Origin: Thermonema rossianum DSM 10300
GTDB taxonomy: Bacteria; Bacteroidota; Bacteroidia; Cytophagales; Thermonemataceae
DNA length: 64,000 nt
Direction: 5' to 3'
NCBI RefSeq assembly: GCF_000426825.1
Contig: NZ_AUGC01000014.1
Coordinates: 1 to 64,000 of the forward strand
The stretch's first letter is position 1. Each line of letters opens with the position of its first letter. A program made the position numbers and the translations under genes. The notes beneath the pieces were generated by a model. The model saw only the letters and a program-made list of their open reading frames with translations, ran no database searches and was not told where the DNA came from. Below are positions 1,499 to 12,546 of this stretch, piece by piece.

Positions 1499-1960
1499 TT
1501 ATGGTTGTGACATCAGAGATTCAAAGTAGCGAATTAAACGCTGCCGTTCAAAGGAGGTGAGACGGGCTTCCGGATGCAGAGGGGTGTAGTAGGCAGGGGG
1601 CATGCTCCGGTCTTTGATTTGCGACACAATGGAATTCAGTTTGTTGCGACGCCGCCGGCTGCTGTAATCGCTCCATAAAGAGAAGTTCAGCTCTTCACGT
1701 CCCTCATGTATATGTTTGCGCACCCAGTATTTGCCCGGCTGCAGGTGGGCATACCAAGGCAAGCGCCCTTCATAGCTGTGACAATCATAGCAGGCAGCTC
1801 GAATCAAAGCAGCAAGTTCTGCCGGTGGCTTCACTTGGCGTATGAAATCTTTGTGACGCCACTCATGCGGCGGGGGTGCCTCAACAGCAGGGGCAGGCAG
1901 CAGCTGCATGAGAAAAACGATGCCTACTGCCCCTATTATCCATTGAAGTCTACGGCTCAT
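1499..1960 (-). CDS. Haem-binding domain protein with CxxCH motif
   Basis: 153 residues with one N-terminal membrane/signal segment (about residues 8-25), then a soluble domain expected in the periplasm. A single haem c attachment motif, CYDCH, is followed by 'LPWYAHLQPGKYWVRKHI' and 'GREELNFSLW', the hallmark of the Bacteroidota haem-binding domain family (Pfam haem_bd). A late motif, 'DRSMPPAYYTPLHPEARL', also fits: such domains use a Met-Pro-Pro segment that may supply an axial ligand. Its ATG overlaps the stop of the upstream DUF3347 gene by 4 bp (ATGA), so the two are probably translationally coupled. Family assignment is firm; the electron partner is unknown. Confidence 0.85.
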   Translation of the reverse strand: MSRRLQWIIGAVGIVFLMQLLPAPAVEAPPPHEWRHKDFIRQVKPPAELAALIRAACYDCHSYEGRLPWYAHLQPGKYWVRKHIHEGREELNFSLWSDYSSRRRRNKLNSIVSQIKDRSMPPAYYTPLHPEARLTSFERQRLIRYFESLMSQP

Positions 1961-2535
1961 GGTTTGTTTATTTCTGACTCTATCCGCCCACAGGCAGGCA
2001 TTTTAGCGCCCATGTAGGGATTAGCAATCTCTTCTGTGGCACTTATCCAGTAGGCTCCTTTGTTGTTGAAAGCCATGGGGCAATGTGCCCAGTAGAGTTT
2101 TTGTTCTACCCCTTGTTTTTGCAACAGGTCCTTGATGTCTTGGCTCAAGATACTCAAATGCTCCCTTTGGTGATGGATTTCATCGATGCTTTCTTGTATA
2201 TGACGTGCATGCTCCATGGCACTCTCCAGAATTTCTTTTATTTCTGCTTGTCCGGCAGCCGGCTGTTGTGCATGCTCTTTCAAGGCAGCTTCCAGCTGCT
2301 TGGCGGCTTCGCCCGCCTTTTCTGCGTCGTCGGCAGCAAGTGCCCGGCTCAATGCAAGGTAGCTATCCACGATGGCTTTCGTCGATACCGGCGATGCCTT
2401 CGCTTCGTCCGTGGTAGTTTCGGTGGATTGCTTGTGTTCTTTTTCTTTTTGCTTTGTGTTGCTCTCTGCTTCCGGCTTGCATGCCGCAAACAGCAACAAT
2501 CCTAACATATAAATGAATAAGTGTTTTGCTTTCAT
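1957..2535 (-). CDS. DUF3347-domain lipoprotein
   Basis: 192 residues from the chosen ATG at 2535; an in-frame upstream ATG at 2574 would add 13 residues but would bury the signal peptide. The N terminus is a lipoprotein signal ending FAAC (Cys19), followed by a Glu/Lys/Thr-rich linker to about residue 60. The rest is a DUF3347 domain: helical, ending with HCPMAFNNKGAYW and a final NPYMGAKMPACG motif. The conserved His, Cys, Met and second Cys make a plausible Cu(I)/Ag(I) site, but this is inferred. The same domain forms the C terminus of the adaptor encoded at 3136-4926, so the operon carries it once free and once fused. Confidence 0.8.
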   Translation of the reverse strand: MKAKHLFIYMLGLLLFAACKPEAESNTKQKEKEHKQSTETTTDEAKASPVSTKAIVDSYLALSRALAADDAEKAGEAAKQLEAALKEHAQQPAAGQAEIKEILESAMEHARHIQESIDEIHHQREHLSILSQDIKDLLQKQGVEQKLYWAHCPMAFNNKGAYWISATEEIANPYMGAKMPACGRIESEINKP

Positions 2536-2587
2536 GACTTTTAGAAGTTTGGTTAATTTTTTTAATACTCGCAATCAAGCAAGAGGC

Positions 2588-2610
2588 GGCAGGGAGCGAA
2601 GCCCCCTGCC
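2588..2610 (-). other. Hairpin between two operon genes
   Basis: GGCAGGG (2588-2594) and CCCTGCC (2604-2610) form a perfect 7-bp GC-rich stem with a 9-nt loop in the 89-bp spacer between the HMBD lipoprotein and DUF3347 genes. No T-run follows on the minus strand, so it is more likely an mRNA processing or stability element than a terminator. Confidence 0.45.
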
Positions 2611-2624
2611 ATACTGAGACTGTC

Positions 2625-2963
2625 TTATTCGGTTTTTTGACCTTCAGTTTTTGCCTCTACTTTCTCAAGCGGCATATGACACACCGGGCATTCGCCTTCT
2701 TTGTCATACATCTTGTCTTTTTCGCACTTCATGGGGCATTGATACATCACCCCGGCTTGCTGCATGTGCTCTTCATGCATGCCTTCATGGCTTTCTTCTT
2801 TGTGCATGTCTTCGTGCATGCCTTCGTGCCCTTCTTCATGCATGGGCATTTGTTCGCTTTGCTGCTCCTGTTTTTCTTCTTGTTTTTCTTGTTTCTCGCC
2901 GGAGCAGGCGGTCAGGCTCATGGCAAAAGCCACGGCAAGAGCTACTACGATTTTTTTCATCAT
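2625..2963 (-). CDS. His/Met-rich lipoprotein with heavy-metal-binding domain
   Basis: 112 residues. The N terminus is a lipoprotein signal with lipobox LTAC (Cys20). A Gln/Glu/Lys-rich linker follows, then a degenerate repeat of 'HEGMHE'-like units (about residues 40-68) giving a dense run of His and Met, typical of extracytoplasmic copper/silver sponges. The C-terminal third holds YQCPMKCE and CPVCHMPLEKVE, the heavy-metal-binding domain also found at the N terminus of CusB-type adaptors, including the one encoded at 4926. It sits between the small membrane peptide gene and the DUF3347 gene. A periplasmic metal chaperone or buffer is the likely role. Confidence 0.8.
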   Translation of the reverse strand: MMKKIVVALAVAFAMSLTACSGEKQEKQEEKQEQQSEQMPMHEEGHEGMHEDMHKEESHEGMHEEHMQQAGVMYQCPMKCEKDKMYDKEGECPVCHMPLEKVEAKTEGQKTE

Positions 2964-2976
2964 AACTTTTTTGTTT

Positions 2977-3114
2977 TTAAGGTTTAAAGATTTGAAAAAG
3001 AAGTATACTCAACACCAGCAAGCCCAGCAGGATGCTGATGATTTGATTGAGCCATTGTTTCCACTGTCTGGGCGGTCGATGGTTCTGAAAGGCATCTTTG
3101 CAACAATCTTTCAT
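2977..3114 (-). CDS. 45-residue CC-motif membrane peptide in the copper operon
   Basis: This short reading frame fills the gap between the HMBD lipoprotein and the CusB-like adaptor, on the operon strand. It runs from ATG at 3114 to TAA at 2977 and starts 21 bp after the adaptor stop. The product begins MKDCCKDAFQNHRPP, has a basic/aromatic stretch 'RQWKQWLNQ', then one hydrophobic helix (about residues 25-42) and ends QIFKP. The vicinal Cys4-Cys5 next to a single membrane span would place a thiol pair at the cytoplasmic face if the helix is oriented by the positive-inside rule. Position and composition suggest a small accessory subunit of the metal pump. I have no certain family name for it. 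Confidence 0.6.
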   Translation of the reverse strand: MKDCCKDAFQNHRPPRQWKQWLNQIISILLGLLVLSILLFQIFKP

Positions 3115-3135
3115 AGCGAATCCATGTTTTAAGCT

Positions 3136-4926
3136 TTACTGACGGGGTGTAAGCATTTGTTTCACCGAACCACAGCGCAGCATTTTGCTTCCAAAATAGG
3201 GATTCCGTATGTCTTTTTCACGGCTCAACCAATAGGCGCCCTCATTATTATCTGCCATGGGGCAGTGCTGCACATATAAAGTATCTTCAGCCACGGGCAG
3301 ACGGCTTGCCCAAGCAATAAAGGCTTCGGAAAGAGGCAAGAAAGCACGACGCATGCTTTCTATGTCTTGGGTTTGGGCGATAGTTGCCGCTGCCGGTTGA
3401 ATGCGCTCTGTCTGTTGCATCCAGAAGCCATGCATTTCGCCCTTCCATGCTTTCATGGGTATCTGTTTTAGATGGCGCAGCATGCTTTGTGCTGCCTTGC
3501 GGGCTGCCTCCCCGTCGTCATTGACCAAAGCGTTTTTCAGGCGGTCGTAGTCGTCAAGCAAAAGGCGCAAAGAGGGTAACAGGCTTGCAGGCACTGCATC
3601 CGCCTTCGTTTTGGAAGGGGAGGCCTCCGCATGCATGCCGCCATGATGATGCCCGGTGAAAGCTGCTCCCCCCTGCCGATTCATCATGCTTGGTTTTCCG
3701 GCAAGCTGGGCTGCCGCATCGATGGCAAAGGTGCCGTAAACGGCTATCTCTTCGCCTTCTTGCAAACCGCTTTCTATTTCGTAGAAGTCACCCAAAGAAG
3801 GACCCAGCACTACCTCCCGCATTTCGAAGTAAATGCCGCTGTCATGCCGGCTCATCACATATACCACCGAGCGCTTGCCCGTCCACATCACAGCCGTTTT
3901 GGGCACCAGCAGGGCTTGTGCCGCTTGCCGGCGGGCGGCTTGCACCTCTGCCACCACCAGCATACCGGGTTTCAACTGCCCGCCGGGGTTGGCTTGCACC
4001 ACCCGGGCACGTGCCACGCGGCTTTGGGGATCCACTACCGGATCGATGTAATCGACGATGCCTTCGAAAGTTTTTCCCGGCAATGCTTGCAAATGATAGC
4101 TTACCCGCATGCCGCGCTGTATCCAGGGGAAGTCTTCTTCGTACACATCCAGCAGTACCCACACGGTAGAGAGATCGGCAATTTCAAAAAGGCTTTGCCC
4201 GGTGCTTACGTAATCGCCTACATTCACTTGCTTTCGCACCACATAGCCCGACACATTGGCAAGCACCGGAAATACCCGTTGCACGCTGCCTCCGGTTATG
4301 ATGTGTTCTATCTGACGGTCGGTGAACTTCCAGCTGCGCAGTTTTTCCTTGGCGGCCTCCACCAGTGGCGAAGTGGTGCCTTGAAGGCGCACTGCCTGCA
4401 GCAATTCCTCTTGGGCGCTAATCAACTCGGGCGAATAGATATAAGCCATCACCTGCCCACGTTGCACATACTGCCCGGTAAAGTTTATCATCAGGCGCTC
4501 GACCCGCCCCGGAATGTGTGCCGGCTGTGTGGCCACGGTCTGCTCATTGACGGCCACCCGCCCATTGAGACGCAGCTGCTTGACCTGCTTCCCTTTTTCT
4601 ACCTTGAAGGTTTGCACCTGCGCCAGTGCCATGGCCGTGGGTGTCATTTTTACTGCATAAGCAGGCGCTTGCCCACCATCATCAAGCGTATTGGCAGGCA
4701 CCAAATCCATACCGCAAATAGGACATTTACCCGGTTCGTTTTGGCGTATTTGCGGGTGCATGGAACAAGTCCAAACTTGCGCCTGCGTGTGTGCGCCCTC
4801 ATCATGGGCAACAGGCGCACGGTCAGGGGCTGAAGGACTGAGCCAATAACCCGCCAACAAACCGGCAGCAAACAACAATAAAGCCAACAGGCGGCGGTCT
4901 TTCAAATATCGAAGTATGGTTTTCAT
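3136..4926 (-). CDS. CusB-type RND periplasmic adaptor with C-terminal DUF3347
   Basis: 596 residues, well above the roughly 400 of a plain CusB. One N-terminal anchor helix (about 12-29) is followed by a heavy-metal-binding domain with 'WTCSMHPQI' and 'CPICGMDLVPA' (about 51-80). The membrane-fusion part (about 100-410) includes a barrel-sandwich region with 'HIPGRVERLMINFTGQYV' and a beta-barrel region with 'VWVLLDVYEEDF'. A His/Met linker (HHHGGMH) leads to a DUF3347 domain (about 450-590) with HCPMADNNEGAYW and a C-terminal NPYFGSKMLRCG motif. The adaptor would link the inner-membrane pump to the TolC-like channel and pass Cu(I)/Ag(I). Its ATG overlaps the ATPase stop by 4 bp (ATGA). Confidence 0.88.
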   Translation of the reverse strand: MKTILRYLKDRRLLALLLFAAGLLAGYWLSPSAPDRAPVAHDEGAHTQAQVWTCSMHPQIRQNEPGKCPICGMDLVPANTLDDGGQAPAYAVKMTPTAMALAQVQTFKVEKGKQVKQLRLNGRVAVNEQTVATQPAHIPGRVERLMINFTGQYVQRGQVMAYIYSPELISAQEELLQAVRLQGTTSPLVEAAKEKLRSWKFTDRQIEHIITGGSVQRVFPVLANVSGYVVRKQVNVGDYVSTGQSLFEIADLSTVWVLLDVYEEDFPWIQRGMRVSYHLQALPGKTFEGIVDYIDPVVDPQSRVARARVVQANPGGQLKPGMLVVAEVQAARRQAAQALLVPKTAVMWTGKRSVVYVMSRHDSGIYFEMREVVLGPSLGDFYEIESGLQEGEEIAVYGTFAIDAAAQLAGKPSMMNRQGGAAFTGHHHGGMHAEASPSKTKADAVPASLLPSLRLLLDDYDRLKNALVNDDGEAARKAAQSMLRHLKQIPMKAWKGEMHGFWMQQTERIQPAAATIAQTQDIESMRRAFLPLSEAFIAWASRLPVAEDTLYVQHCPMADNNEGAYWLSREKDIRNPYFGSKMLRCGSVKQMLTPRQ

Positions 4927-6968
4927 GACTGATGCAACTTTACTTGTTTTTTCAATAATTGAGCATTCAAAGCAACGATAATGGTACTTACACTCATCAA
5001 TACACCACCAATGGCAGGGCTTAACATAATGCCCCAGGGGGCCAGCACACCGGCGGCCAAAGGCAAGGCAAAGAGATTATAGCCGGTAGCCCACCACAGG
5101 TTTTGGCGCATCTTGCGATAAGTAGCCCTGCCGAACACAATCAAATGCACAATGTCTTGCGGGTTGCTGTTTACCAAAATGATATCTGCCGTTTCGGCGG
5201 CAACGTCTGTGCCGGAACCTACGGCAATCCCCACATCGGCTTGTGCCAAAGCGGGCGCGTCATTTACTCCGTCGCCGGTCATGGCCACAAATTCACCTTG
5301 TTGTTGCAATTCCTTTACGATGCGCTGCTTTTCGTCGGGCAATACTTCGGCATAAAAGCCATCCAAGCCCAGCTTCTTGCTTACTGCCTCTGCCACGCGA
5401 TGGCTGTCGCCGGTGGCCATGAATACTTTGATATGCATGCGATGCAGCTGCTCTACCGCCGGTTTTGACTCTTCACGCAAGGCATCTGCCAAAGCAAGAT
5501 AACCGATTGGCTTCCCATCGTATATCAGCAACACTACCGTTTCGGTGCCATCGCCTTCTGCCTCTGCAGGCAAGTCGCCGTATTGCTCCTTGTAAAAAGC
5601 CGTATTGGTAATCATCAGCTCCTTCCCTTCATACTCTCCTCTAATCCCCTTGCCGGTAATATTTTCCACAGCTGTAACTTCTAAAAGAGACGCTCCCTCC
5701 TCTTGGGCTTTTTTCACTATGCCATGAGCAATGGGGTGCTCCGAGTGTTGTTCCAAAGAGGCAGCCAGCTGCAGTACCTTTTCTTTTGTGTAGTCAGGAT
5801 GCAGGGAGCCACAACGCCGTACGCCAAAGTTGCCTTGGGTGAGCGTGCCGGTTTTGTCAAAAACCATCACACTGATTTTGCGGGCATTTTCAAAGGCAGT
5901 GCGGTTGCGAATAAGCAAGCCGTTTTGCGCTGAAATAGTAGTAGAAATAGCCACAACCAAAGGAACTGCCAAGCCCAATGCATGCGGACAGGCAATAATC
6001 ATGACAGTAACGGCACGTTCCAAAGCAAAATCGAGCGGACTGCCGCTGCTCCACCAAATAATGAAGGTGAGCGCCCCCACTCCCAGCGCTATGTAGAAAA
6101 GCCATGCCGCGGCTTTGTCTGCCAAGTTTTGGGTTTTCGACTTGCTTTTTTGTGCCTCTTGTACCATGGCTATGACTTTGTTCAGGTAGGTGTCGTTGCC
6201 TACATGGGTAACGCGTACCACCAAAACGGCATGGTCGTTGACCGAACCCGCCGCCACCCGGTCACCCGCTTTCTTGGCTACCGGCACCGACTCTCCCGTA
6301 AGCATCGATTCGTTGACATAGCTCTCGCCTTCTATGACTTCGCCATCGGCAGGGATGCGCTCGCCGGGGCGTATCACTACTTCATCGCCCGCTTGCAAAT
6401 GCTCTACTTTAACTTCTTCAAAGCTGCCATCCGGCTTGCGCCGCCGGGCAGTAGCCGGCAACAACTGGCTGAGTGCTTCCAGCGCCCGCGAAGCCCCCAT
6501 GACAGACTTCATTTCGAACCAGTGTCCCAGTAGCATAATGTCAATGAGCGATGCCAATTCCCAAAAGAAAGGCTTACCTTCAACAAGTTGTAAAGCTACT
6601 GCGGTGCTGTAGAAATAAGCTACCGAAATAGCCAAAGCAACCAGGGTCATCATAGCGGGTTGACGGCGCCCCAGTTCCTGCTTCATACCTTTCAGAAAAG
6701 GAAGCCCTCCGTAAAAGAAAAGAGCCGTAGCCAAGGCGAGCTGTACATAAGCAGCCGGTGCCCACTGCCAAGAGATGCCCACCCATGACTGTAGCATGGG
6801 CGACAACAAAAGGATGGGCAAGGTAAGTATCAAAGAAATCCAGAAGCGGCGCCGGAAATCGGATACCATATGGGCGTGATGGTCATGCCCGTGGTTGTGC
6901 TCCTGCGCATGTCCATGATGATGGGCATGCTGTGTGTGGTTATCGTGTTTAGAGGCGTGTTGATTCAT
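4923..6968 (-). CDS. copB: CopB-type copper/silver P1B-ATPase
   Basis: 681 residues. The N terminus carries a long His-rich tail (about 14 His in the first 33 residues) and no Cys-based metal-binding domain, as in CopB rather than CopA. Core motifs are all present: TGES (224-227), the transmembrane metal motif CPH (327-329) in place of CPC, phosphorylated Asp371 in DKTGTLT, SEHP, and [10 protein letters not shown]. The last helices read NLWWATGYN and [13 protein letters not shown], a pattern of the P1B-3 subgroup. It is predicted to export Cu or Ag from the cytoplasm using ATP. It lies between the channel and adaptor genes, with a 4-bp gap and a 4-bp overlap. Confidence 0.92.
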
Positions 6969-6972
6969 GATA

Positions 6973-8217
6973 TTAGTAGGTTTGTGTGTTCAGATATTCC
7001 CAGTCGGCTTTGGCTTTTTGAAAGCGCACATAAGCCGATATTTGCTTTTTCTTGTATTCGAACAGCTGCTGCTGCACCCGGAGCACTTCCTCAAAATCGC
7101 TTTGACCTTGCCCGTAGGCTGTCAGCAACAACTGCAGGGTTGTGTGTACTTTGTCGATGTTTTCGCCATAAAGCCGGTAGTAACGGTAACTTTCCCACAG
7201 TTCAAACTGCACTTGGGCAGCTTGGCTCTGCAACTCATTGAGCGTTTGGCGCATTTCATATTCCACGCTTTGTTGACGGGCAAGGGCTTCGGCTTCGGCT
7301 GCCCGGTAGCGCTTGCCCCACAGGGGCAAAGACACCGACAGCATGGGCATGAGTATGTCGCGCCCGTTTTGCTCTACATTCATGTCTTGACGCTTGCTTA
7401 CCACCACATAATCAAGCCCCAGCCCAAAACGTGGTTTGCGCTGCAGCTTTGCCAAGGTCTGTTGTTCTGCTGCGGCTGCCTGCAGGTGCTCCAGCGCTTG
7501 TACCCGCGGGTGGGCATCCGCCATCAGGCTATCGACTGCCAACAAAAGGCTGTCAGGTGGCAGTAAGGTATCGGGCGGCAACAGGCGGGTGCTGTCTGGG
7601 CGGTTGAGCATGCGGTTGAGTTGTACCTGCCATGGATAGGCTTTTTGTTTGAGGGCTTCCAAACTAAGGCGCGCTTCCTGCAATTGCACATCCAGGCGCA
7701 GGTAGTCTGCCATGGAAGCCTTTCCCGATGCCAGGCGGCTGCGTAAAATAGGCTCATATTGCTCCAGCCACTGTACATTTTCCAATTCAATGGCATACCA
7801 AGCCTGCCACTCAAACCACGCCCAGTAGGTCTTGCTGAAAAGCATCCACTCACGAGCTGCCCCGGCTTGCCAGTATAAGGCTTGCGCCCGGGCTTCGGCA
7901 GCGGCCGCACGCCGCCCGGCTTTCAATGTGCCCCACCAAGGCAACATTTGATTGACAGACAAACGCAGGCGCTGTGCACCCAAACGGGTTTCTACAGGTA
8001 ACAAAAACCAGCCAACGCTTACAGTGGGTTCAGCCAAATAACCGGCCTGCAGGCTGCGTTGCCGGTAAGCCTCTACCATCTTACGCTGCGCTTGCAAGGC
8101 GGGATTTTGCTCTATGAGCTGCCGGCGGTAGAGCTCCGGTATTTGGGCACGGACCACCCCAGCCATCATCACGAACAGCAGTGCCAAACCGTATTTATGC
8201 ATTGTTTTTGTTTTCAT
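6973..8217 (-). CDS. TolC-family outer membrane channel (CusC-like)
   Basis: 414 residues with a signal peptide ending VVRAQ; a second ATG six codons in (8202) would give a shorter, more standard signal. Long helical stretches rich in Gln, Ala, Leu and Arg, in two similar halves, fit the outer-membrane efflux protein fold that forms the trimeric duct of RND pumps. The motif 'NRPDSTRLLPPDTLLPPD' between the halves is seen in heavy-metal efflux members. The gene starts inside the last codons of the CusA-like gene (23-bp overlap) and ends 4 bp before the CopB-type ATPase, so it belongs to the same transcript. Confidence 0.88.
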   Translation of the reverse strand: MKTKTMHKYGLALLFVMMAGVVRAQIPELYRRQLIEQNPALQAQRKMVEAYRQRSLQAGYLAEPTVSVGWFLLPVETRLGAQRLRLSVNQMLPWWGTLKAGRRAAAAEARAQALYWQAGAAREWMLFSKTYWAWFEWQAWYAIELENVQWLEQYEPILRSRLASGKASMADYLRLDVQLQEARLSLEALKQKAYPWQVQLNRMLNRPDSTRLLPPDTLLPPDSLLLAVDSLMADAHPRVQALEHLQAAAAEQQTLAKLQRKPRFGLGLDYVVVSKRQDMNVEQNGRDILMPMLSVSLPLWGKRYRAAEAEALARQQSVEYEMRQTLNELQSQAAQVQFELWESYRYYRLYGENIDKVHTTLQLLLTAYGQGQSDFEEVLRVQQQLFEYKKKQISAYVRFQKAKADWEYLNTQTY

Positions 8218-11200
8218 GTCGTTTCATTTTCAGAGATTCACGCCAATATACCAATACAGGCACCAGGAAGTAAGAGCTGATGTCGATGAGCATGCCGCCC
8301 ATGGTAGGGATAGCCATGGGAATCATGATGTCGGCGCCGCGCCCGGTAGAAGTGAGCACGGGCAGCAAGGCAATGGCAGTGGTGGCCGTGGTCATGGCAC
8401 ATGCCCGTATGCGGCGGGCTCCCCCTTCGATGACTGCCTCCTTGAGGGCTTGCATGCCGTCAGGGCGGTTCTTTTTCAAAGATTCCCGCAAATAAGTGCT
8501 CATCAATACACCGTCGTCGGTAGATATGCCAAAGAGCGCAATGAAGCCTACCCAAATGGCTACACTCAGGTTGATGGGGTGCATGCCAAACAGATGGCGA
8601 AGATTTTGCCCAAACAGGGTAAAATCGGCAAACCAGGGCTGTCCCCACAACCAAATGAGTACAAAGCCACCACTGAAGGCTATTGCCACCCCGGTGAAGA
8701 CCATCAGTGCCATGGATACTTCGCGCAGTTGCAAGTAGAGAATCAGGAAAATAAGCACCAAAACCAGCGGCAGAATGACGGCAAGGCGTTTTTCGGCGCG
8801 CACTTGGTTTTCATAACTGCCCGAAAATTTGAAACTCACCCCGGCAGGCACTTTCAACTCTCCTGCTGAAATGCGCTGTTCAATAGCCCGGCGGGCTGCT
8901 TCCACCACCTCCACTTCGGAAAAGCCATCTCTTTTATCAAACAGCACATAACTCACCAAGAAGGTATCTTCACTCTTGATGGCTTGCGGTCCTTGGGTGT
9001 ACTCTATTTCTACGACCTGCTCCAAAGGTATTTGTGCGCCTGTGGGTGTGGCAATCAAGGTTTTGGCAATGGCTTCGGGTGTGTCGCGCAATTCCCGCGG
9101 GTAACGCACCCGCACCGGGTAGCGCTCGCGTCCTTCGACCGTGGTGCTCAGCGGCATGCCGCCGATGGCCACTTCTATAAACTGCAGGATATCTTCCACC
9201 TTCAAACCGAAGCGGGCAGCTTCTTCACGCTTGATGCGCAGTTGCAGGTAAGGCTTGCCTATCACGCGGTCGGCAAACACAGCTTCTGCCTTCACTGAAG
9301 GCACCTGTTTGAGTATTTTTTCCAGCTCGAAGCCGAACTGTTCGATGGTTTTCAGGTCGGGACCGTACACTTTGATACCCATGGGCGCACGCATGCCTGT
9401 CTGAAGCATCACCAGGCGTGTTTCTATGGGCTGCAATTTGGGTGCGGAAGTGAGTCCCGGTATTTGCGTGCGTGCCGCTATCTCTTGCCATATGTCATCG
9501 GGCGACTGAATGTGGGCACGCCAGTTGCGAAAGTACAGCCCCCCGTCGTCGGGGATGAGCTCCTGTGGCGACACCCCGGCCGCCAGGGCTTCTTCGTTGG
9601 TGTAGGCCTTGCCCGAACGGGTTACGAAGCGCCCGGCTTCATCTACCTTAAAGCGTACACGGTGCCCCTTATCGTCAACTACATACTCCGGCTTGTAGTT
9701 GATGATATTTTCAAACATAGACAAGGGCGCAGGGTCTAAGGCAGACTCTACCCGCCCGGCTTTGCCTACGACCAACTCCACCTCCGGGATGCCGGCCAGC
9801 AGCATATCAACTTGTGCAAGCACCTCGCGGTTGTGTTCCACCCCGGCATGCGGCATATTGGTAGGCATCAGCAAGAAGCTGCCTTCATCCAACGAAGGCA
9901 TAAACTCTTCGCCAATACCGGGAAAAGCATGCACCATGGTACTCCACAGAGCAGTGGTGCGTATGTTCCACCCCACGGCATCGAAACCACGCGCCACCCA
10001 ACCAAACAAACTTTGAAAGCCCAGCCACACCAGCAATCCCCAAAGCAGCAAGGTCGAGGGAATCGCCAGATAGATGTTTTTGTGTTCCAAACACCACGCA
10101 AGCATGGGACGGTAATAGCGCTCCAAAAGGGTAAACAGCAGCAAGACACTGCCCGCCATCAAAGCCACCATCAACATGTTTTGCCAAAAAGGGCGCGCAG
10201 CACCCAAAGGCATCCAGTAGTCTGCCAGCAACCACAGCACCGCAAAGACGGCAATCAGAACGGCACCATATTGGCGGTTGAAGGCTGCCACCGCAGGGGG
10301 CAGACGCTTCTGCAGGAAGGGCAGTTCCAAAAGAGCGCGAAAAGCAAACAAAGACAGCACCACGGCAGCCCAAGTGCTTGCCACCCACCAGGAAAGCAAT
10401 GCTACGGGCAGAAGCAGCAGGCGCACCCAACGCAGTTTGCTTTTATCGAAACGTACGCCAAAGAACCAATGAGCAAAAGCCGGCAAGATGAGCAATGCCA
10501 CCAAAAGGGAGGCCACCAGTGCAAACGTCTTGGTATATGCCAAGGGGTGAAACAATTTGCCCTCGGCGGCTTGCAGTGCAAACACCGGCAAGAAACTGAT
10601 GACGGTAGTAGCTACGGCCGTCAAGATGGCACCCGACACTTCGGCGGCGCCTTTATACACCGTTTCGCGCATGCTTTGCCCCGGCGGTGCCTGCTCTATT
10701 TGCTGAATGATGCTTTCGGAAAGCACGATGCCCAAATCGACCATGGTGCCTATGGCAATGGCAATACCCGACAAAGCCACAATGTTGGCATCGATGCCAA
10801 AATAGCGCATGGCAATAAAGCACATCAGCACGGCTATGGGCAGCAAGGAAGAAATCAGCACCGACGCCCGCAAATTCAACACCATTGCTACCACCACCAG
10901 TATGGAAATCAGGATTTCGAGCGTCAGAGCTTCTTCCAAAGTGCCGAGGGTTTCGTAAATGAGCGTGGAACGGTCATAAAAAGGCACGATGGTCAGCCGG
11001 CTCACGCGCCCGTCTGACAGCTTCTTTTCAGGCAAGCCGGGCGCTATCTCCCGTATCTTTTCTTTTACTTTTTGAATCACCTCCAGCGGATTGGCGCCAT
11101 AGCGGGCAACAACCACGCCTCCTACCACTTCGGCACCTTCCTTGTCGAGCAGACCGCGGCGGGGAGCCGGACCTACACGCACCCAAGCGATGTCTTTCAG

Positions 11201-12028
11201 GCGTATGGGCGTGCCTTCACGCAAGGTAACCACCGCCTCTTCCAGGTCTTTTACAGTTTTGACATACCCCAAGCCCCGCACCAGATATTCTGCGCGGTTC
11301 ACCTCAATGGTGCGGGCGCCGGCGTCACGGTTCGCGCGCCGCACCGCTTCTACCACCTCTTTCAAGGTGATGCCGTACAGTTTCAGGGCATCAGGGTTTA
11401 CTTCTATTTGATACTCTTTCACAAAACCACCAATAGAAGCTACTTCCGACACGCCCTCCACCGAGTTCAAGGCATAGCGCACGTAGTAATCCTGGACGCT
11501 GCGCAGTTCGTGCAGGTCCCAACCACCGGTGGGATGTCCCTGCTCGTCGCGCCCTTCGAGTGTGTACCAGAATACCTGCCCCAAAGCGGTGGCATCGGGT
11601 CCCAAGGCAGGCTGCACGCCCGGGGGCAACAAGCCCGCGGGCAGGGCGTTCAGTTTTTCCAAGATGCGTGCCCGCGACCAGTAAAAATCCACATCCTCGT
11701 TGAAGATGATGTAAATGCTTGAAAAACCAAACATAGAAGTGCTGCGGATGGTCTTCACCCCCGGCACGCCCAACAAGTAAGTAGTAAGCGGATAGGTGAT
11801 TTGGTCTTCCACGTCTTGCGGCGAGCGCCCCTCCCATTCCGTGAACACAATTTGCTGGTTCTCACCTATATCAGGAATGGCATCCACGGGCACCGGGTCG
11901 CGTGGCAAAGCGCGCAGAAAGTCCCAGTCGAAAGGGGCTGTAAGCAAGCCCCAGCCAACGAAAATCAATAAAACAAGTACGGTAAACAGTTTATTTTCAA
12001 GGAAGAAACGAATAATAGCGTTCAGCAT
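8195..12028 (-). CDS. CusA/CzcA-family heavy-metal RND pump
   Basis: 1277 residues from ATG at 12028; an upstream in-frame ATG at 12085 would add 19 residues that do not fit, since MLNAIIRFFLENKLF is the usual start of this family. It is the inner-membrane proton-driven pump of a Cus-type tripartite system. The N-terminal helix is followed by 'DIGENQQIVFTEWEGRSPQD' in the first porter domain and by GTMVDLGIVLSESI around TM4, which carries the Asp of the proton relay. Length exceeds E. coli CusA by over 200 residues: extra hydrophobic helices follow TM6, and an Asp/Gly-rich insertion lies in the second periplasmic half ('EYVVDDKGHRVRF' to 'DDGGLYFRNW'). First pump gene of the operon. Confidence 0.92.
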   Translation of the reverse strand: MLNAIIRFFLENKLFTVLVLLIFVGWGLLTAPFDWDFLRALPRDPVPVDAIPDIGENQQIVFTEWEGRSPQDVEDQITYPLTTYLLGVPGVKTIRSTSMFGFSSIYIIFNEDVDFYWSRARILEKLNALPAGLLPPGVQPALGPDATALGQVFWYTLEGRDEQGHPTGGWDLHELRSVQDYYVRYALNSVEGVSEVASIGGFVKEYQIEVNPDALKLYGITLKEVVEAVRRANRDAGARTIEVNRAEYLVRGLGYVKTVKDLEEAVVTLREGTPIRLKDIAWVRVGPAPRRGLLDKEGAEVVGGVVVARYGANPLEVIQKVKEKIREIAPGLPEKKLSDGRVSRLTIVPFYDRSTLIYETLGTLEEALTLEILISILVVVAMVLNLRASVLISSLLPIAVLMCFIAMRYFGIDANIVALSGIAIAIGTMVDLGIVLSESIIQQIEQAPPGQSMRETVYKGAAEVSGAILTAVATTVISFLPVFALQAAEGKLFHPLAYTKTFALVASLLVALLILPAFAHWFFGVRFDKSKLRWVRLLLLPVALLSWWVASTWAAVVLSLFAFRALLELPFLQKRLPPAVAAFNRQYGAVLIAVFAVLWLLADYWMPLGAARPFWQNMLMVALMAGSVLLLFTLLERYYRPMLAWCLEHKNIYLAIPSTLLLWGLLVWLGFQSLFGWVARGFDAVGWNIRTTALWSTMVHAFPGIGEEFMPSLDEGSFLLMPTNMPHAGVEHNREVLAQVDMLLAGIPEVELVVGKAGRVESALDPAPLSMFENIINYKPEYVVDDKGHRVRFKVDEAGRFVTRSGKAYTNEEALAAGVSPQELIPDDGGLYFRNWRAHIQSPDDIWQEIAARTQIPGLTSAPKLQPIETRLVMLQTGMRAPMGIKVYGPDLKTIEQFGFELEKILKQVPSVKAEAVFADRVIGKPYLQLRIKREEAARFGLKVEDILQFIEVAIGGMPLSTTVEGRERYPVRVRYPRELRDTPEAIAKTLIATPTGAQIPLEQVVEIEYTQGPQAIKSEDTFLVSYVLFDKRDGFSEVEVVEAARRAIEQRISAGELKVPAGVSFKFSGSYENQVRAEKRLAVILPLVLVLIFLILYLQLREVSMALMVFTGVAIAFSGGFVLIWLWGQPWFADFTLFGQNLRHLFGMHPINLSVAIWVGFIALFGISTDDGVLMSTYLRESLKKNRPDGMQALKEAVIEGGARRIRACAMTTATTAIALLPVLTSTGRGADIMIPMAIPTMGGMLIDISSYFLVPVLVYWRESLKMKRHENKNNA

Positions 12029-12117
12029 ACGTCTGTACGTTTTGGTTGAAAGCACAAAAACAAAAGCACAGCCGGCAGGCAACAAACTACCTGCGGCTTA
12101 CCAAGACGTATGCCGGT

Positions 12118-12546
12118 CTATATTCTCCATTGACGCAAAAGGCGCAACCACTGCCTGCCCTTTCGCCGCGGGGGCGAAAAAACGGCAAGGGGCACGGGCG
12201 CCTGCAAAAGACGGCGAAGAAAAACGGTGGGAACGAAAACAACCAACAACAGCACCCACACGGGCGAAGCCAAAGGCAAGGCGGCCTGTGAAGGTGTGTA
12301 ATCTTCTTTCAGCTGCAAAAGGTGCCACTCATTGGTGCAACAGGCGGCTTTCGAAAGCGCTTCGCCGGGGCAGGGGCTGCCTTCAGCTTGTATCTGCTCC
12401 ATGCCGCAGCCTTCGGGCTGCACCACAATGCCCCTCTGCTCTTTTACCAGATGGCTGCCGCAGTAATGACGCCACACGCTCACGCCGGTTTGGCTGAGCA
12501 GCATCACCATGGCAAACCATATGGACAAAAAGGCTTTCATGAACAA
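12118..12546 (-). CDS. HYC_CC_PP-type small membrane protein
   Basis: 142 residues (ATG at 12546; a second ATG two codons in is equally possible). It has an N-terminal signal or membrane helix (about 4-22), then the motif WRHYCGSHLV, a Cys-rich middle with 'EGCGME', 'SPCPGEA' and a vicinal pair in 'AACCTNEW', a second membrane helix near residues 90-112, and a basic tail with 'SPPRRKG'. The HYC, CC and PP landmarks match a small uncharacterised Bacteroidota family that I recall under the name HYC_CC_PP. It lies 89 bp upstream of the CusA-like gene on the same strand and is probably the first gene of the operon. Metal binding by the cysteines is inference. Confidence 0.65.
   Translation of the reverse strand: MFMKAFLSIWFAMVMLLSQTGVSVWRHYCGSHLVKEQRGIVVQPEGCGMEQIQAEGSPCPGEALSKAACCTNEWHLLQLKEDYTPSQAALPLASPVWVLLLVVFVPTVFLRRLLQAPVPLAVFSPPRRKGRQWLRLLRQWRI

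Follow-up and report, generated by a model that had tools for sequence, protein, structure and literature searches.

The 64,000-nucleotide window analysed here, the start of contig NZ_AUGC01000014.1 of Thermonema rossianum DSM 10300, contains a minus-strand ATG frame of 138 bp (3114..2977) that encodes a 45-residue peptide, with MKDCCKD at its start, a basic segment and one C-terminal helix (about residues 16–43). The frame lies between the gene for a CusB-type periplasmic adaptor with an N-terminal HMBD and a C-terminal DUF3347 domain (3136..4926 (−); Pfam HlyD_D23, 1.3e-71; HMBD, 5.6e-15; DUF3347, 3.5e-19) and, directly downstream, that for an HMBD lipoprotein (2625..2963 (−); Pfam HMBD, 5.6e-5, 23.4 bits, just under the cut-off of 23.6). 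It starts 21 bases after the adaptor stop at 3136 and fills 138 of the 172 bases between that stop and the lipoprotein start at 2963. On the far side of the adaptor are genes for a heavy-metal P1B-type ATPase with a His-rich N-terminus (4923..6968 (−); TIGR01511, copper-translocating P-type ATPase, 635 bits, over the cut-off), an outer-membrane factor (6973..8217 (−); Pfam OEP, 4e-31), a CusA/CzcA-family heavy-metal resistance–nodulation–division (RND) transporter (8195..12085 (−); TIGR00914, 761 bits, over the cut-off; Pfam ACR_tran) and a HYC_CC_PP family protein that is probably encoded by the first gene of the operon (12118..12546 (−); NF047658, 47.8 bits, over the cut-off). Beyond the HMBD lipoprotein follow a DUF3347 lipoprotein (1957..2574 (−); Pfam DUF3347, 1.1e-16) and a haem-binding domain protein (1499..1960 (−); Pfam Haem_bd, 2.7e-37). 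All operon genes from HYC_CC_PP to Haem_bd share one strand. The first-pass annotation, made from the letters alone, had described the frame, its MKDCCKD start, its terminal helix and the spacer that it occupies correctly, and its naming of the neighbours is borne out by Pfam and NCBIfam. Just after the HMBD lipoprotein gene, a GC-rich terminator-like hairpin of 11 pairs (8 G–C; 2587..2611 (−)) could end or attenuate the transcript ahead of the DUF3347 and Haem_bd genes; it is a weak signal, as the scan found two such hairpins against a shuffle mean of 1.8 (that is, chance level), and promoter and terminator signals together were no commoner than in shuffles.

A run of 45 open codons is unremarkable by chance, and frame and spacing alone are not significant; the earlier remark that these are those of a real gene was correct in its outcome, but it is homology and the pattern of substitution that establish it. 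In a genome of the same genus, the peptide is 73% identical and lies between the same two genes, those for the adaptor and the HMBD lipoprotein. The pair differs by 32 substitutions, distributed 11/4/17 over codon positions 1/2/3, with proportions of changed synonymous (pS) and non-synonymous (pN) sites of 0.67 and 0.14 (Jukes–Cantor dN/dS ratio of about 0.09); only 2 of 20,000 neutral placements of these changes were as conservative and stop-free. Pooling of 13 pairs (same-genus pair included) gave 93/53/182 changes by codon position and a pN/pS of 0.31. Given the orthologue at the same place and substitutions that respect the frame, the window frame is almost certainly a real, translated gene, one of a conserved family on which purifying selection acts. 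Both refuting conditions named in the first-pass annotation were examined, and neither holds: one-helix homologues that keep the CC exist at the same operon position, and the changes, in the same-genus pair as in the 13 pairs, follow the reading frame. An AlphaFold2 single-sequence model of the window peptide places the helix at residues 16–43, with a mean predicted local distance difference test (pLDDT) score of 92–96 over residues 21–40 and of about 63 over the first 20 residues.

The peptide is one of an unnamed family of tiny predicted membrane proteins encoded in the copper-efflux operons of many Bacteroidota. Nearly all relatives begin with MKxCC, are 38–45 residues long and have a basic segment followed by one C-terminal helix. 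Using a four-row profile over the 390 genomes of the window's order, we found intact MxxCC frames in at least 51 (a lower bound that counts fetched DNA only, leaves out G079, which has internal stops, and does not cover G326); these genomes encode 54 distinct peptides (49 MKxCC, 4 MxKPCC and 1 MRDCC). The raw output of this profile (80 of the 390 genomes at E ≤ 0.01) includes unrelated helices inside large proteins, and a single-sequence search of 59 relatives (49 genomes at E ≤ 1) gave mostly chance helix matches; L004, L005 and L006 were the loci retained from it as relatives. The phylum-wide profile search yielded 17 of 395, some of them unrelated; this figure is an underestimate, with up to 18 candidates per genome scored. 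The stringent DNA pattern ATGAARNNNTGYTGYAARACNGGN matched 20 times in 19 of the 390 genomes, and its backward control 0 times. Scanning of GTDB with MK[DES]CCKTG produced 77 pattern matches, from which 51 loci were confirmed, all from Bacteroidota by title bar one metagenome-assembled genome titled Thalassovita. We rejected the latter (L085) as a non-Bacteroidota case: it is the apparent counterpart of G203:C434, a contig from a genome assigned to the same order as the window.

Curated resources have not captured this family. Pfam and NCBIfam gave nothing over the cut-off for the window peptide or four relatives, nor did Pfam, used by itself, for two more, and no description of the peptide was found in the open-licence literature searched. 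The term 'unlisted' in the first-pass annotation suits the relative on a Pontibacter actiniarum plasmid, over which no gene is listed (in an incomplete gene table), but not the one on Spirosoma linguale plasmid pSLIN02, which is annotated as a hypothetical protein (Slin_6882) and is separated from an RND adaptor gene by two genes. A lipoprotein was considered and rejected; cysteines 4 and 5 precede any hydrophobic stretch, so that there is no lipobox after a signal. Membership among the CopZ/Atx1 HMA chaperones finds no support either, as the peptide has no Pfam HMA match and its motif is an adjacent CC rather than MxCxxC. The HYC_CC_PP protein of the window (12118–12546 (−)) is a further cysteine-pair protein recurrent in Bacteroidota metal operons; it resembles the peptide in being a small protein with a cysteine pair in the same operons, but it has about 140 residues and is already modelled in NCBIfam (NF047658), a model that the 45-residue peptide does not match. 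We class the peptides as a new family of an already known kind, the small membrane proteins associated with transporters.

Because the pattern of the GTDB scan contained CC, the loci that it returned are no proof that CC is conserved. For a fairer test, we ran a profile of the part after the CC over 94 CusB–DUF3347 loci picked regardless of the peptide (those among the matches listed whose open frame spans 550 codons or more). It recovered 25 frames at E ≤ 1e-5, all beside adaptor genes and 24 of them with an in-frame CC; the 25th is a frameshifted copy with the head MKECCKTGDE in the neighbouring frame. This profile was trained on CC peptides, and distant CC-less relatives could escape it. 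The CC was also present in all 20 of the further four-row-profile matches that were fetched. It is the most conserved feature of the family, and the helix diverges.

The genomic context ties the family to metal export, without fixing it to one gene. Within 6 kb of the 51 GTDB loci (some stretches being shortened by contig ends), we found genes for DUF3347 proteins (45 loci), HlyD adaptors (40), CusA (35), outer-membrane factors (29), P1B ATPases (21) and Haem_bd proteins (18), and at least one of these six near 49 loci. All except two of the nearby P1B genes are on the strand of the peptide, and at 13 of the 51 loci the peptide start overlaps the stop of the preceding gene, often that for the adaptor, as ATGA. 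A DUF3347 gene is within 2 kb of 18 of the 20 matches to the stringent pattern; of the other two, one (G215) has it about 2.5 kb off and one (G376:C8) has none within about 9 kb. Downstream of the 94 CusB–DUF3347 genes, an MxxCC helix frame was found within 1.7 kb in 24 cases; the opposite strand gave 3. In wide windows, the partner gene met most regularly is CusA. For a Hymenobacter-like group (a tentative label), HlyD and CusA accompany the peptide in 7 of 7 wider stretches (17–18 kb); there the peptide stands between a HYC-like protein, whose last residues are KIPDIRIFIQ, and an HMBD protein, and the HlyD and CusA genes come further on. In another genome (L250) the peptide directly precedes CusA. 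In some flavobacterial loci, the genes nearby are limited to those for DUF3347, Haem_bd and P1B ATPase proteins, several with the peptide just before the ATPase and no CusA within 6 kb, and several members of the family adjoin DUF3347, Haem_bd or P1B-ATPase genes and lack an RND gene within 6 kb. In correction of the first-pass annotation, the family as a whole is not bound to a single pump gene. RND homologues occur in 14 of the 14 genomes searched of loci without a nearby CusA, counted at genome level irrespective of contig, and are so common that the result is uninformative. Two further observations concern the surroundings. A small secreted protein of repeated short G-rich units recurs beside the peptide in several genera (L034, L114 and L222) and looks like another unnamed operon member. 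At L073/L252 and L071, relatives come right after a DUF983-type gene in stretches that lack a nearby metal pump and contain genes for AraC-type regulators and a DsbA-like protein; this may be a second context of the family.

A hydrophobic stretch is present in 44 of 44 distinct peptides, and in all 44 Lys and Arg are commoner before the helix than in the few residues after it. Under the positive-inside rule, the more positive side of a helix is cytosolic; this charge bias therefore predicts an N-in topology, with the CC probably in the cytosol on a flexible arm, where model confidence is low. The pair lies ahead of the helix and most probably on the cytosolic side, which corrects its earlier placement simply 'near the membrane face'. 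In that reducing compartment, a vicinal cysteine pair kept in metal-export operons would most simply be a soft-metal ligand. We propose that the peptide is a single-pass inner-membrane micropeptide (N-in/C-out) of Bacteroidota Cus-type copper/silver export operons, in which the adjacent cysteines, carried on a short flexible basic cytosolic arm some 10–20 residues before the helix, would form a dithiol ligand for Cu(I) or Ag(I). The helix would dock on a membrane partner from the same operon (CusA in the first place, the P1B ATPase in the second), and the peptide would either capture cytosolic metal at the membrane and hand it to the pump, or sense metal and adjust the pump. The proposed passing of Cu(I) to an export pump recalls CopZ/Atx1 and CusF; CopZ is a folded MxCxxC domain and CusF a periplasmic barrel, whereas the MKxCC peptide is membrane-tethered, has a CC and lacks a folded domain. 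We give about even odds (roughly 0.5) to this reading, in which a cytosolic, membrane-anchored dithiol for Cu(I)/Ag(I) helps the Cus pump, the P1B ATPase or both. Its more specific form—a cytosol-facing subunit of Cus-type exporters, in which the anchored CC peptide gathers Cu(I)/Ag(I) on the cytosolic side to supply the RND pump or the ATPase of the same operon—is put forward tentatively, as a minority expectation.

Several points weigh against this proposal. The topology is derived from the positive-inside rule alone, and cysteine pairs elsewhere serve as disulfides or redox centres. Export genes are absent from the 6 kb around two GTDB loci (L071 and L073), and in two wider stretches (L252 and L253) there is no pump out to about 9 kb. 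Only 26 of the 94 CusB–DUF3347 genes are followed by the peptide within 1.7 kb, even with the lost-stop and frameshifted copies included. Since most related operons do without it, the peptide is, on this genomic distribution, a common yet optional accessory, dispensable for such pumps. There are also broken copies, with internal stops (L025, around 1501–1623), a frameshift (L131) or a lost stop (L029/L084); the decayed copies L025 and L131 indicate that the gene can be lost. The lost-stop copy is from Marivirga sericea (L029, 955–1626 (−); L084, 6001 onward), where the stop-less peptide frame runs into the next DUF3347 protein. We rejected a DUF3347 fusion in this case; a lost stop is likelier, because a DUF3347 signal peptide with its own start follows.

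Alternatively, the peptide could be a structural modulator like AcrZ or KdpF, with a helix that packs on the transporter, changing how active or stable it is, and a CC that serves dimerisation or anchoring instead of metal transfer. KdpF, MgtS and other transporter micropeptides are likewise single-pass and associated with a membrane transporter; they are not known to have a conserved metal-ligand motif. Wide-context loci mostly contain CusA, and size, single helix and adjacency to pump genes resemble small transporter partners such as AcrZ, the small partner of the Escherichia coli RND pump AcrB (PMC7267776). AcrZ is the nearest known kind, but orientation and proline do not fit: its N-terminus is periplasmic and its C-terminus cytoplasmic, the reverse of the N-in topology predicted for 44 of 44 distinct peptides, and it needs a helix-bending proline to bind AcrB, whereas residues 16–44 of the window peptide contain none. 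The MKxCC peptide further differs in its conserved CC and in being encoded within the pump operon. A purely structural helix would have no need of a CC that is the best conserved feature while the helix diverges, and we regard this explanation as possible but improbable.

The peptide may instead belong with the DUF3347/Haem_bd/P1B-ATPase part of the operon and not with the RND pump, for example in Cu(I) handover to the P1B ATPase. DUF3347 is the commonest neighbour, the flavobacterial loci place the peptide before a P1B ATPase in stretches lacking CusA, and the window ATPase (4923..6968) has no HMA metal-binding domain among its Pfam matches. P1B genes, however, lie within 6 kb of fewer than half of the GTDB loci (21 of 51), although those genomes may encode them elsewhere, and we consider this assignment unlikely. 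A regulatory leader or untranslated spacer with no functional protein, to which the short frame and the ordinary length of its open run would be suited, is strongly disfavoured by frame-specific purifying selection, by amino acids conserved across many gene contexts, by the ATGA overlaps and by the lack of any Rfam match across window positions 2400–3700.

The copper/silver resistance operons of a whole phylum thus hold a conserved gene that curated family libraries have missed, probably because it is so small. It is debated whether the metal exported by Cus-type RND pumps can come from the cytosol or comes from the periplasm only, and this question can be tested directly through a peptide of the pump operon whose conserved cysteine pair probably faces the cytosol. 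If the proposal is true, a CC subunit on the cytosolic side would be a place where metal from the cytosol enters the tripartite pump.
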